A stretch of 64,000 nucleotides of DNA from Sphingobacterium sp. ML3W (GTDB lineage: Bacteria > Bacteroidota > Bacteroidia > Sphingobacteriales > Sphingobacteriaceae). The stretch covers positions 1,612,001 to 1,676,000 of the forward strand of contig NZ_CP009278.1 of NCBI RefSeq assembly GCF_000747525.1. Reading direction: 5' to 3'. Below, in pieces: positions 35,815 through 40,603 of this stretch; positions within the stretch are counted from its first letter, which is position 1; every line of letters begins with the position of its first letter. The translations under genes were made by a program, and so were the position numbers. The notes beneath the pieces are model-generated. The model searched no databases. It saw only the letters and a program-made list of their open reading frames with translations, and was not told the DNA's origin.

Positions 35815-35852
35815 AAAAAAGCCTTTCTCATTTATTTGAGAGAGGCTTTTTT
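35815..35852 (+). terminator. Terminator of holA
   Basis: Fifteen-bp stem (35815-35829 with 35838-35852, one G-U) and a poly-T end. Confidence 0.85.
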
Positions 35853-35936
35853 TGTAATAAGATCTATTTTAAATTGATATAACCAGTTGTTTTATAGTGT
35901 TTTGTGTGTTTTTGTTTTCTTTTTGTAATTTTTAAA

Positions 35937-35974
35937 TTAAACACTTGTTTAATTTAAACACTTGTTTAAATTTG
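35937..35974 (+). promoter_or_regulatory. Tandem TetR operators over the efflux-operon promoter
   Basis: Two identical 16-bp palindromic copies of TTAAACACTTGTTTAA (35937-35952 and 35954-35969), 17 bp apart. The -33 element (CTTG, 35944-35947) lies in the first copy and the -7 box TAAATTTG (35967-35974) overlaps the second, with a 19-nt spacer. Binding of the downstream TetR protein would block RNA polymerase, so the operon is probably self-repressed. Confidence 0.85.
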
Positions 35975-36000
35975 CACACGGTTTTTTTAAATCATCAAGA

Positions 36001-36618
36001 ATGGAATTTAGTGAGAAACAATTAGAAATATTGCATGTTGCAGAGAATCTTTTTTCAAAAAATGGTTTTGATGGGACATCTGTTCGTGACATTGCACAAG
36101 AGGCACAGGTCAATGTCGCAATGATCAATTATTATTTTGGGTCTAAGGATAAATTATTGGATGATTTGTTCACCTATCGAGTTGAAAAATTTAAAATGGA
36201 TGAAAGTATTTTGAACCTCACTTCACCCGTCATGGAAATTCTCGACGAAATGGTCAGTTCGTATATCAAGTATATGAATTCGAGCCTGGCTATTTATCAG
36301 ATTATTGCTATCGAAGCAGGTGTAAAAAGAAGATTAATGCTATCTGATTCATATAAAAATCTAAAGGAACATAATCTACAAGTTATTTCGAGTATTATTC
36401 ATCGCGGAATAGAAACTGGAGAATTTTTATCAGGCAATGATCCAATATTAATCCATGCTACGATGATGGGGACCTTCATGAATTTTCAGATGAATAAAAC
36501 ATTTTTAAAATCGCAATTAAATATAACTACAGACGAGGCCTATAGCAAATATATGGAATCTACCCTAGTCATACATTTACAAAGAACGATTAAAGCTTTA
36601 TTAACATATGCATATTAA
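36001..36618 (+). CDS. TetR/AcrR-family transcriptional regulator
   Basis: Repressor of 205 residues. The N-terminal helix-turn-helix covers about 5-52 (EILHVAENLFSKNGFDGTSVRDIA, then NVAMINYYFGSKDKLL), the usual TetR pattern; the C-terminal part is the ligand-binding and dimer domain. I start it at the ATG at 36001, downstream of the promoter. A TTG start at 35962 would lie inside the operator. It is the first gene of tetR-tolC-hlyD-MFS, overlapping the next by 11 nt, and is expected to bind the tandem palindromes and respond to a pump substrate. Confidence 0.92.
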   Translation: MEFSEKQLEILHVAENLFSKNGFDGTSVRDIAQEAQVNVAMINYYFGSKDKLLDDLFTYRVEKFKMDESILNLTSPVMEILDEMVSSYIKYMNSSLAIYQIIAIEAGVKRRLMLSDSYKNLKEHNLQVISSIIHRGIETGEFLSGNDPILIHATMMGTFMNFQMNKTFLKSQLNITTDEAYSKYMESTLVIHLQRTIKALLTYAY

Positions 36619-37912
36619 AATAGGAAAGTTGGCGCTCTTGCTTTTCTGTCTTCAGGGCTCGGCATTTGCACAGCAAAATGGCCCTCTTACCTTGCAAGAG
36701 GTTATCCATCTTGCACAGACACAAAGTTTAGAAGCAAAAGCTACAGAGACAAAAATTAGAGGAAGAAAACTGGAGTTAGAAGCTTCCAAGAATAGTTTGC
36801 TCCCTGATGCTAAACTAAGTGGCCAATATTTGGCTATGACCTCACCAGATGTAAAACTGCAAATACCACTGTCTTCTTCTTCAGATCCGATGGATATCAA
36901 GGCTAATCAGCTGTTGTTAGGACAGGCTTCCATCAGTATGCCTATCTATACCGGAGGAAAGATTAAAAATAGTATTGCTGCTGCGGGTAATGCTGTAAAG
37001 GCTGAAGAATATACAGCATTGGCACTTAAAGATCAATTAGCACAGCGTGGTATCAATTTGTTTATCAGCTTATACAAAGCACAGCAAACAGCGCTTTTAA
37101 TGGAGGAAAATATAAAAAGAGCCGAGCAACGAGTGATTGATTTCAGAGCCATGGAAGCGAATGGTATTATTCCAAGAAACGACCTTTTAAAATCAGAGCT
37201 GCAATTGTCCAATTATAAAGTTGCCTTACAGGAAGCTGAGAAAAATAAAGCGGTGTTAAATTATGAACTGGTTAATTTTCTAAAATTAGATGAGGGTACA
37301 CATATATCAGCTATACAATTGGAGGATCCTGAAGTTGCTGTAAAATCTTCTGATGCCCAGATTGCACTGAATAATAGAAATGAGTTGAAAGCTCTGCAAG
37401 CACAACACGATATTGCTGAAAATAAAGTCAATATCGAAAAGGCTAACGCATTGCCTAAAATTGCTGTATCTGGAGGTTATGCCGCATTAGATGTACATAA
37501 TTTGTTAACGGTGAAAAATGCCATGAATGTAGGAGTAGGCGTGTCCTATGATATTGGCTCGCTTTATAAAAATAAGAAAAATGTCAATATCGCGCGTAAT
37601 CAAGTTAGTCAAATTGATGAAAATGTTGTCATTATGAACGATAAAATAAAGGTTCAAGTGCAACAAGCAAATGAAAACTTTCAGCTGTCGGTTTCGCAGA
37701 ACCAGCTCTATTCTGAAGCTGTTAGTCAAGCAAATGAAAATTATCGAATCGTCAAGGATAAGTATGATAACGGCGTGGCAGATACAGATGATTTATTAGA
37801 AGCCGACGTACAGCAATTACAGTCAAAAATTAACTTAGCAATTTCCAAAGCGAATACGGTAGAGAAATATTACGACCTGCTTTTGGTAAATGGACAAATA
37901 GCAACAAAATAA
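36608..37912 (+). CDS. TolC-family outer-membrane efflux protein (operon 1)
   Basis: Outer-membrane channel of 434 residues with a signal peptide ending at SAFA-QQ. Two similar helical halves, each starting with a TLQEVIHLA-type segment, give the periplasmic alpha-barrel; the Gly-rich VGVGVSYDIG stretch is a beta-barrel strand. It is the exit duct of a tripartite pump with the next two genes. It overlaps the tetR gene end by 11 nt, so translation is likely coupled. Confidence 0.92.
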   Translation: MHIKIGKLALLLFCLQGSAFAQQNGPLTLQEVIHLAQTQSLEAKATETKIRGRKLELEASKNSLLPDAKLSGQYLAMTSPDVKLQIPLSSSSDPMDIKANQLLLGQASISMPIYTGGKIKNSIAAAGNAVKAEEYTALALKDQLAQRGINLFISLYKAQQTALLMEENIKRAEQRVIDFRAMEANGIIPRNDLLKSELQLSNYKVALQEAEKNKAVLNYELVNFLKLDEGTHISAIQLEDPEVAVKSSDAQIALNNRNELKALQAQHDIAENKVNIEKANALPKIAVSGGYAALDVHNLLTVKNAMNVGVGVSYDIGSLYKNKKNVNIARNQVSQIDENVVIMNDKIKVQVQQANENFQLSVSQNQLYSEAVSQANENYRIVKDKYDNGVADTDDLLEADVQQLQSKINLAISKANTVEKYYDLLLVNGQIATK

Positions 37913-37923
37913 TTATAATAGCA

Positions 37924-39015
37924 ATGGAAAATCAAGAAGAAAAGAAACCATCGAGTAAAAAGTTCGCCTTCATTCTAATAGCCCTTATTTTAGTTGGGGG
38001 TGGTTATGGAGGTTATAAATATATACACGGTCAATCACATGAGACTACAGATGATGCGCAGGTTGATAAAAATATGAACCCCATCATTCCAAAAGTAGGA
38101 GGATATATTTCCCAAGTATATGTGAAAGATAATGATCTTGTCAAAAAGGGGGATACCCTTTTTACCATTGACACTCAAGATTATTTAATTTCTGTGAAAG
38201 AGGCGGAAGCGGCACTCTTGGGAGCAGAAAGTTCTTTCGAGGTTTCAAAAGCTGATGTTAACGCAACCTCAGCGAATGTTGCTGTTTCCGATGCAACTGT
38301 TCGCTCTAACGTCGGAAGTATAGATGCCGCAAAGATTAGAGCCGAACAAGCTCAGAATGATTTTACCCGTTATTCGAACCTATATCATAATCATTCGATC
38401 ACCAAACAACAATATGAGCAAGCGCTGACAGCAAAGTTAGAAGCAGAGAAGCAAGTGGAGATCTTACAGCAACAACGTAATGCCTCCAACTCGCAACGCG
38501 AGGCTGTGGTGAGTAAAACTAATGTAGCAAGTAAGCAGACGTTAGTTGCACAAGCGAATATAGAGCGTGCAAAAGCGGCGCTTGATGCAGCGAAGTTGAA
38601 CCTTTCGTATACGGTTGTGACTGCCTCTGCAGATGGTCAGATTTCTAATGTAAAAATTAGACCAGGTCAAATGGTTAATCCTGGAGCAGCCTTGTTTTAC
38701 ATAGTCGACAATCATGAAACTTGGGTAGTTGCCAATTTCAAAGAGACACAAATGAATGATATCCGTATTGGACAAAAAGTAGAGGTGATTGTAGATGCAT
38801 ACCCAAGTATTAAGTTTGAAGGTGAAGTGAATTCTTTCTCACCAGCGACAGGGTCTAGATTTTCTTTGTTACCTCCGGACAATGCAACGGGTAACTTTGT
38901 GAAAACCGTGCAGCGTCTGCCTGTGAAGATATTATTAACGAATGCTAATACGGCCGATCATATTGCATTATTACGTTCAGGGATGAACGCAGATGTTGAT
39001 GTCCATTTAAAATAG
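37924..39015 (+). CDS. HlyD/EmrA-family periplasmic adaptor (operon 1)
   Basis: Membrane-fusion protein of 363 residues, with one N-terminal membrane helix (about 14-32), a biotinyl-lipoyl domain (around YISQVYVKDNDLVKKGDTLF), a long coiled-coil hairpin (about 90-200) and a beta-barrel domain (GQMVNPGAALFYIV to the C-terminus). The late LLPPDNATGNFVK block is shared with the operon 2 paralogue. It links the MFS pump to TolC. Confidence 0.93.
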   Translation: MENQEEKKPSSKKFAFILIALILVGGGYGGYKYIHGQSHETTDDAQVDKNMNPIIPKVGGYISQVYVKDNDLVKKGDTLFTIDTQDYLISVKEAEAALLGAESSFEVSKADVNATSANVAVSDATVRSNVGSIDAAKIRAEQAQNDFTRYSNLYHNHSITKQQYEQALTAKLEAEKQVEILQQQRNASNSQREAVVSKTNVASKQTLVAQANIERAKAALDAAKLNLSYTVVTASADGQISNVKIRPGQMVNPGAALFYIVDNHETWVVANFKETQMNDIRIGQKVEVIVDAYPSIKFEGEVNSFSPATGSRFSLLPPDNATGNFVKTVQRLPVKILLTNANTADHIALLRSGMNADVDVHLK

Positions 39016-39019
39016 AACT

Positions 39020-40603
39020 ATGACAGCTACACTTGATCAAGATAGTCTTATTGAATATGGGTATCGACGTGTCATCATTACCATTATAGCCGTACTTTGT
39101 GCTTTATTGGAGATTGTGGATACCACGATTGTTAATGTTGCTCTCAATGATATGAAAGGAACATTGGGTGCTACGTTGACTGATATCGCTTGGGTGATCA
39201 CTGCATATGCAATCGCAAATGTTATCGTAATCCCCATGACAAGTTGGCTATCGCAGCAATTTGGTCGCAAAAATTACTTTGCTGCCTCCATTATTATTTT
39301 TACCGTATCTTCTTTTTTCTGTGGTAATTCGACGAATTTATGGGAACTCGTATTTTTTAGATTTATACAAGGAATGGGAGGCGGGGCACTTTTGGTTACC
39401 GCCCAAACCATTATCACTGAAAGCTATCCACCTGCTAAAAGAAGTATGGCACAAGCTATCTATGGGATGGGGGTTATTGTGGGTCCTACTTTAGGGCCAC
39501 CTTTAGGTGGTTATATCGTCGATCATTTCTCTTGGCCTTATATTTTCTATATCAATGTGCCTTTAGGTATTATTGCGGTTCTCTTGACACTTTCATTTGT
39601 TAGAAGTCCAAAATATGGTGAAAAACAAGCTGCAAAAGATGTGGATTGGTGGGGTATGGTATTTCTCATTATGTTCATTGGTTCATTACAATATGTATTG
39701 GAACATGGACAACAAGATGATTGGTTTTCTAATAGTACCATTGTTGTGTTATCCGTGGCCTCCGTCTTAGGATTGTTATTTTTTGTGTGGCGAGAGTTGA
39801 CATATGATCGGCCAATTGTGAATCTTCGCGTTCTAAAAGACAAAAATCTGCAAGTAGGGGTCGTAATGAGTTTTATATTAGGATTTGGTTTATTCGGTTC
39901 AACATTTGTAATCCCGATATACACGCAATCCATTCTAGGTTGGACTGCTACAGATGCAGGGTTACTATTGATTCCAAGTTCACTGATGACGGGCGCGATG
40001 ATGCCTTTTATAGGGAAGATGATTCAAAATGGAGTTCCTCAAAAGTATATGGTAGCGTTAGGTCTATGTATATTCTTTGGTTTTTCATTTGTCATGTACA
40101 GCCGATTGACCAATGATACAGGTGCGGAGCATATGTTCTGGCCATTGATATTCAGAGGGGTCGGTTTGGGTCTGTTATTTGTTCCTGTCATGACTTTATC
40201 CCTTTCTACTTTGTCGGGTAAAAGCATAGGTGAAGGCGCAGCTTTTACAGGTATGATGCGTCAGCTTGGAGGTTCATTTGGAATTGCATTGATTACCACT
40301 TTTATTTCCCGATTCACGCAGGCGCACCGTGTCAATTTGCTCTCGCATCTGGATACCACGAGTTTCGAAGTGCAGCAGCGAGTTAACCAGCTTCAAGCCA
40401 GCTTTATTGCTAAAGGATTTGCTCCTAATGAAGCATTAGCAAAGGCCTATCAGCTATTGGAAGGTTCTGTGACAAAGCAAGCAACTGTATTGTCGTATAT
40501 GGATGTGTTCCTATATATTGGGTTATTATTTATCGCTTGTGTCCCTTTTGTTCTAATGATTAAACAAGGGAAGAATAAAGTGGATACGTCGAGTTTACAT
40601 TAA
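39020..40603 (+). CDS. DHA2-family MFS multidrug exporter (EmrB-like, operon 1)
   Basis: Drug/H+ antiporter of 527 residues with about 14 predicted membrane helices. The first helix has the D-T-T-I-V-N-V-A block of DHA2 exporters; motif A is SWLSQQFGRKNYF; motif C is in GMGVIVGPTLGPPLGGYIVD. It sits 5 nt after the adaptor gene. With the adaptor and TolC protein it should form an EmrAB-TolC-type pump. Substrate unknown. Confidence 0.94.
   Translation: MTATLDQDSLIEYGYRRVIITIIAVLCALLEIVDTTIVNVALNDMKGTLGATLTDIAWVITAYAIANVIVIPMTSWLSQQFGRKNYFAASIIIFTVSSFFCGNSTNLWELVFFRFIQGMGGGALLVTAQTIITESYPPAKRSMAQAIYGMGVIVGPTLGPPLGGYIVDHFSWPYIFYINVPLGIIAVLLTLSFVRSPKYGEKQAAKDVDWWGMVFLIMFIGSLQYVLEHGQQDDWFSNSTIVVLSVASVLGLLFFVWRELTYDRPIVNLRVLKDKNLQVGVVMSFILGFGLFGSTFVIPIYTQSILGWTATDAGLLLIPSSLMTGAMMPFIGKMIQNGVPQKYMVALGLCIFFGFSFVMYSRLTNDTGAEHMFWPLIFRGVGLGLLFVPVMTLSLSTLSGKSIGEGAAFTGMMRQLGGSFGIALITTFISRFTQAHRVNLLSHLDTTSFEVQQRVNQLQASFIAKGFAPNEALAKAYQLLEGSVTKQATVLSYMDVFLYIGLLFIACVPFVLMIKQGKNKVDTSSLH

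Follow-up and report, generated by a model that had tools for sequence, protein, structure and literature searches.

Two copies of a 16-bp palindrome lie directly upstream of a gene for a TetR-family regulator in Sphingobacterium sp. ML3W. The second copy is fused to a predicted promoter, the TetR gene heads an efflux operon, and the pair of sites is conserved together with this TetR protein. We conclude that the twin sites are very probably the autoregulatory operator of the adjacent repressor, with one dimer at each site, the promoter covered, and the operon held low. Without inducer, each palindrome would hold one TetR dimer, and the two dimers would span -42 to -10, from the -33 element through the spacer into the start of the -7 box. 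RNA polymerase with sigma-A would be excluded, which would keep the expression of tetR-tolC-emrA-emrB low. A pump substrate or a similar ligand would free the dimers, and the pump and the repressor would be induced together. The binding of the sites by TetR, the repression, and the release by a ligand are what we infer. The features are listed in Table 1.

Table 1. Predicted operator, promoter, and genes of the efflux operon. Coordinates are positions in the window, which is the whole stretch of 64,000 nucleotides that was analyzed.
Feature	Position	Strand	Evidence or remark
Operator 1, TTAAACACTTGTTTAA	35937..35952	none	Sequence; kept with TetR orthologues; covers predicted -33 region (-42 to -27)
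Operator 2, TTAAACACTTGTTTAA	35954..35969	none	Sequence; conserved; spans -25 to -10; gives first 3 bases of -7 box
Candidate -33 element, TTG	35945..35947	+	Inside operator 1, 19 nt 5' of -7 box
-7 element, TAAATTTG	35967..35974	+	Sequence; fused to end of operator 2
Predicted transcription start	35979	+	From -12/-5 placement of -7 box (excerpt of PMC6847099)
TetR-family regulator, 205 aa	36001..36618	+	Pfam TetR_N PF00440, 58.5 bits (cutoff 24)
TolC-like outer membrane efflux protein	36608..37912	+	Pfam OEP, 144.4 bits
EmrA/HlyD-type periplasmic adaptor	37924..39015	+	Pfam HlyD_D23, 80.3 bits (above cutoff)
EmrB-type DHA2 MFS drug exporter	39020..40603	+	NCBIfam TIGR00711, 428.8 bits (cutoff 230.2)

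Each 16-mer has two 7-base arms (TTAAACA and TGTTTAA) and a 2-base center. A first-pass annotation of this DNA had reported that the 16-mer is present twice, and the two copies are indeed exact. With a gap of 1 base, they are 17 bp apart, both start to start and center to center, and the pair forms a 33-bp element that ends 31 bp 5' of the TetR gene. In the 5.33-Mb genome, TTAAACANNTGTTTAA occurs at these two places only. When up to 3 mismatches were allowed across the whole window, the 6 matches were not significant (the mean was 2.83, and 10 of 100 shuffles were as high). As the annotation had also stated, 17 bp is not an integer number of turns: at 10.5 bp per turn, the centers are about 223 degrees apart. 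Given this angle and a HlyIIR dimer modelled over about 20 bp (excerpt of PMC1828608), neighboring dimers would be close.

The sites overlap a predicted promoter. According to the available part of PMC6847099, the Bacteroidetes sigma-A consensus is TTTG/TANNTTTG, and the -7 element, TAHHTTTG (TAnnTTTG), has its T at -12 and its G at -5; in F. johnsoniae, the -33 element is much less evident. TAAATTTG fits this -7 pattern, and the -12/-5 placement implies a start near 35979; relative to it, site 1 spans -42 to -27 and site 2 spans -25 to -10. The candidate -33 TTG would then be at -34 to -32, within site 1 (CTTG at 35944-35947 matches 3 of the 4 bases of the -33 consensus, TTTG), and the -7 box begins in the last 3 bases of site 2. 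The placement of the sites over -33 and -7 in the annotation was thus right. The operator-promoter element went unreported by generic scans for sigma-70 promoters and terminators, which is expected in this phylum.

We also compiled the regions upstream of 126 loci, of which 93 are distinct after identical upstreams are merged (L001-L004 and L078-L090 were omitted). The last site runs directly into the -7 box in 68 of the 75 distinct regions with at least two sites, and among the 67 regions whose sites form a 17-bp pair, 49 have a TTG from site 1 at the -33 position; because the compilation mixes loci that were chosen by pattern with loci that were chosen by protein, these fractions are not frequencies in nature. 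Two true tandems (L007 and L038) were counted as single sites owing to a changed or inserted base.

The annotation had placed a TetR gene and an efflux operon directly 3' of the sites, and the TetR gene does head TolC-, EmrA-, and EmrB-like genes. Its ATG at 36001 is the start that aligns in close relatives; the list of frames also contains an upstream TTG start at 35962. The AlphaFold model of the TetR protein (pLDDT of 91.5) has the all-helical TetR fold, and its matches in the PDB include PfmR (3vpr), FadR (3whb), HlyIIR (2wv1), and RefZ (6mj1). The adaptor scores 259.9 bits against the EmrA subfamily (NCBIfam TIGR00998), which is below the cutoff of 390.8. The first 11 bases of tolC are also the last 11 of tetR (36608-36618). 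Sphingobacterium faecium (L003) and Sphingobacterium sp. B16 (L004) have this overlap too, which suggests coupled translation. The order holA-tetR-tolC-emrA-emrB-DoxX is likewise kept in both of these relatives, and the TetR protein of S. faecium is 89% identical to that of the window. More broadly, in 25 of the 28 loci that were checked, the TetR gene has a neighbor homologous to the window's TolC or EmrA; at L097, L098, and L123, there was no TolC or EmrA neighbor match at E ≤ 1e-4. Between holA and the operators (35815-35855 of the window), there is also a terminator-like hairpin, AAGCCTTTCTCA...TGAGAGAGGCTT followed by T's, which a simple scan missed.

The annotation had made its prediction depend on conservation of the repeats upstream of orthologous operons, and they are conserved. 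Among 93 genomes of Sphingobacterium, 42 have an orthologue of the TetR protein at E ≤ 1e-40. The strict tandem is present in 38 of these 42 genomes and in none of the 51 others (Fisher's P = 6e-22, a statistic that ignores shared ancestry). Three of the four misses (G054, G008, and G047) have one changed base in a site and keep the spacing of 17; in the fourth (G037), site 2 is longer by one inserted base, and the TetR match begins only at residue 25. We also aligned 24 representatives of the 42 distinct upstream regions from this genus on site 2 (L003, L004, and L047 were omitted). Both 16-mers and the nTTTG are mostly at 1.5-2 bits per column, and the variable centers and linkers are at 0.5-1.5 bits. 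The flanks are mostly below 0.9 bits; the exceptions are the two bases directly 5' of site 1 (1.6 and 1.0 bits) and a few columns at 1.1-1.3 bits on either side. In most of a distant group within the genus (L011, L012, L015, L016, L018, L019, and L021-L037), the distance from the end of the tandem to the ATG is about 70-80 bases, not 31, which gives a longer leader; L013, L014, L017, and L020 of that group keep a short leader.

We then considered other genomes in two ways. A search by pattern (TTAAACNNNNGTTTAA, a gap of 0-30 bases, and TTAAACNNNNGTTTAA again) matched 40 of 399 genomes from the family, 11 of 395 from the class (including the window's own), and 18 of 397 from a second family. 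Three of those 18 genomes are also in the class set, and the total is 65 distinct genomes. The reversed pattern, our control, gave 0 matches in every genome row listed. In all 65 genomes, a TetR homologue is directly downstream of the match, and in 60 of them, the gap is exactly 1 base, even though 0-30 were permitted; many of the sequences are related, so these counts are not independent events. The gap is 13-14 bases in four of the 65, all from genus g44, and in G190, one base is changed and three sites follow one another at 16 and 17 bp.

A search by protein, across 295 genomes from the class, found 28 homologues at E ≤ 1e-15 besides the window's own. AAAC-N4-GTTT sites are upstream of 20 of these: 9 have the 17-bp tandem, 3 have another spacing (19, 21, or 38 bp), and 8 have just one site close to the gene. 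The remaining 8 have a diverged palindrome, similar to TTAATCAATCGTTTGATTAA or TCAATCAAACGTTTGA, without the AAAC-N4-GTTT core. The pattern had also matched the genomes of five of the nine tandems, so there is some overlap between the two sets. All 28 genes are preceded by a palindrome, but the 17-bp tandem is only one of several layouts, and a single 16-mer may be sufficient for control. Four of the eight loci with a single site lack a strict TAnHTTTG after it (L123, L124, L138, and L141, which is one base off). L139, another of the eight, has a second site 86 bp away. The frame of its TetR homologue has four stops, and the 16-mer fused to the -7 box persists upstream.

Overall, we met spacings of 16, 19, 21, 22, 29, 30, and 38 bp besides 17, so the helical phase between sites is not the same everywhere. 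Still, the preference for 17 bp suggests that the relative placement of the two dimers matters. Three loci (L049, L105, and L106) have three successive operators, with spacings of 16+17 and 22+17. In L097-L100, from genus g44, the sites are 29-30 bp apart, an extra half-site (GTGTTTAA) runs into the -7 box, and the recognition helix differs (NVALLNYYFRSK).

In the window's TetR, the recognition helix is around N38-V-A-M-I-N-Y-Y-F-G-S-K49, and N38, A40, M41, and Y44-K49 are invariant across 32 aligned homologues. Six homologues (L125, L129, L130, L131, L133, and L136) have the helix NMAM, together with TTAATCAATCGTTTGATTAA or a close palindrome directly 5' of the -7 box. Two that are outside the alignment (L142 and L143) have S at position 40, the helix NISM, and TCAATCAAACGTTTGA-like sites. 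The helix is therefore NMAM or NISM in 8 of 8 homologues with a diverged palindrome, and it is N[VIL]AM in all 19 of the other homologues from the protein search that were read (L139 was excluded). As the eight are clustered by genus, this joint change of helix and operator is a lead, not proof.

Could the TetR protein have other targets? The annotation had proposed that further copies of the 16-mer might define a regulon. Perfect copies of TTAAACNNNNGTTTAA are at three places in the genome: the two operators and a third place (L145) that lies within a reading frame. Allowing up to one mismatch gave 55 places on the forward pattern versus 77 for the reversed control across the whole genome, so there is no excess, and no wider regulon emerged. 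We inspected five of the 53 other places: L144, L145, and L146 are inside reading frames, and L148 is between two frames. At the fifth, L147 (G000:C1:4770988), the 16-mer, TTAAACATGTGTTGAA, has one mismatch and overlaps the beginning of a response-regulator-like frame. The main target of the TetR protein appears to be its own operon.

We weighed several other explanations for the repeats. The two might be independent TetR sites without cooperativity, with the 17 bp set only by the promoter, as site 1 supplies the -33 TTG and site 2 supplies the TA of the -7 box. We regard this as a serious contender that falls somewhat short of convincing us. The frequent fusion of site 2 to the -7 box (68/75) and the TTG from site 1 (49/67) speak for it, and at a locus with a 21-bp spacing (L121), TTTG is still 19 nt 5' of the -7 box. 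However, in the 18 of 67 regions that lack the TTG (13 have ACG, 2 have GTG, and 1 each has CTG, ATG, or TCG), the spacing is still exactly 17, so the -33 TTG alone does not explain the spacing; blocking of the -33 region could still be a constraint on it. Also, L105 and L106 have a third site farther upstream. A single dimer on the central dyad between the 16-mers, GTTTAA-N-TTAAAC, seems extremely unlikely to us. This dyad arises in any 17-bp tandem of these palindromes, but it is lost, while the 16-mer is kept, in homologues with a single site (such as L122, L135, L137, and L141) or with another spacing (L121, L134, and L132), and we rejected the dyad for this reason. In addition, its arm centers are 7 bp apart, versus 10 bp in the 16-mer, and the recognition helices of HlyIIR were modelled one full turn apart (excerpt of PMC1828608).

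It is very unlikely that some other regulator binds the repeats. The window's own genome does contain four further TetR-type matches, but the co-occurrence of the tandem with this TetR (38/42 versus 0/51) and the adjacency of a homologue to all 65 pattern matches led us to reject this idea, and the diverged operators accompany a changed helix in all eight cases, albeit clustered by genus. We give almost no credence to a functionless AT-rich repeat. The intergenic region (223 bases) is just 21.5% G+C, but none of 20,000 dinucleotide shuffles of it contained two identical 16-mers that had 6-bp complementary arms and did not overlap, and conservation across several families of the class contradicts this explanation.

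Returning to autoregulation by the adjacent TetR, we tentatively raise a broader idea, about which we are more doubtful than confident: these proteins may be a TetR subfamily of the Bacteroidia with a portable operator-promoter module, namely two copies of TTAAAC-N4-GTTTAA at a strongly preferred period of 17 bp, with the -7 box almost always at the end of the second copy. If so, a 17-bp period without the -33 TTG would reflect a specific way for two dimers to sit next to each other on sites that do not overlap, unlike QacR. Because helix and operator change together, the module could also yield a readable helix-to-operator code for the phylum. To our knowledge, few operators have been defined for regulators from Bacteroidota. 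The present operator is resolved to single bases, is kept across several families, and is tied to a drug exporter. With it, the sites that control many efflux operons could be marked from sequence alone, and it offers a compact, putatively repressible promoter in which the -7 signal is already that of the phylum. As a kind, paired TetR operators that cover a promoter are familiar; a limited search of open papers found no prior account of this operator from Bacteroidia among the matches listed.

Several known systems are similar to this one in part. The operon resembles EmrAB-TolC in that it encodes a TolC-like protein, an EmrA-like adaptor, and a DHA2/EmrB exporter. The EmrR of E. coli is a MarR-type regulator, whereas the regulator here is a TetR gene inside the operon. 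The motif of PsrA is GAAAC-N4-GTTTC; we considered a link to PsrA and dropped it after a literature search without result. RefZ (YttP) from Bacillus subtilis is the best NCBIfam match of the window's TetR, but the score of 82.6 bits (NF037937) is below the cutoff of 180, so the protein is not RefZ, and RefZ acts on division, not efflux.

HlyIIR, a TetR-family protein from Bacillus cereus, has an operator half-site that reportedly resembles TTGTTTAA. Its recognition helix resembles the one here, and three of its four predicted base-contact residues are matched: V41, A42, and Y46, which are predicted to contact bases, correspond to V39, A40, and Y44 here, but S45 is replaced by N43. The backbone contacts N40 and K51 correspond to N38 and K49. 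However, HlyIIR controls another kind of gene, in a Firmicute, and the similarity of the whole proteins is low (phmmer, 41.9 bits). HlyIIR protects about 50 bp, with at least two dimers on the operator (excerpt of PMC1828608).

Finally, the annotation had compared the sites to cooperative binding of the QacR or RamR type. QacR, CprB, and CgmR share with this system two dimers predicted on the promoter, and the half-site spacer of 4 bp that is described for the QacR-like class (excerpt of PMC6018408) is also seen here, as AAAC-N4-GTTT. In that class, as far as the available parts of PMC6018408 and PMC4150764 describe it, the palindromes overlap and share base pairs (28 bp for QacR and 22 bp for CprB), whereas here two separate palindromes extend over 33 bp without overlap. 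The comparison to QacR is thus a loose one: it holds as an analogy of principle, with two sites on a promoter, and not of geometry.
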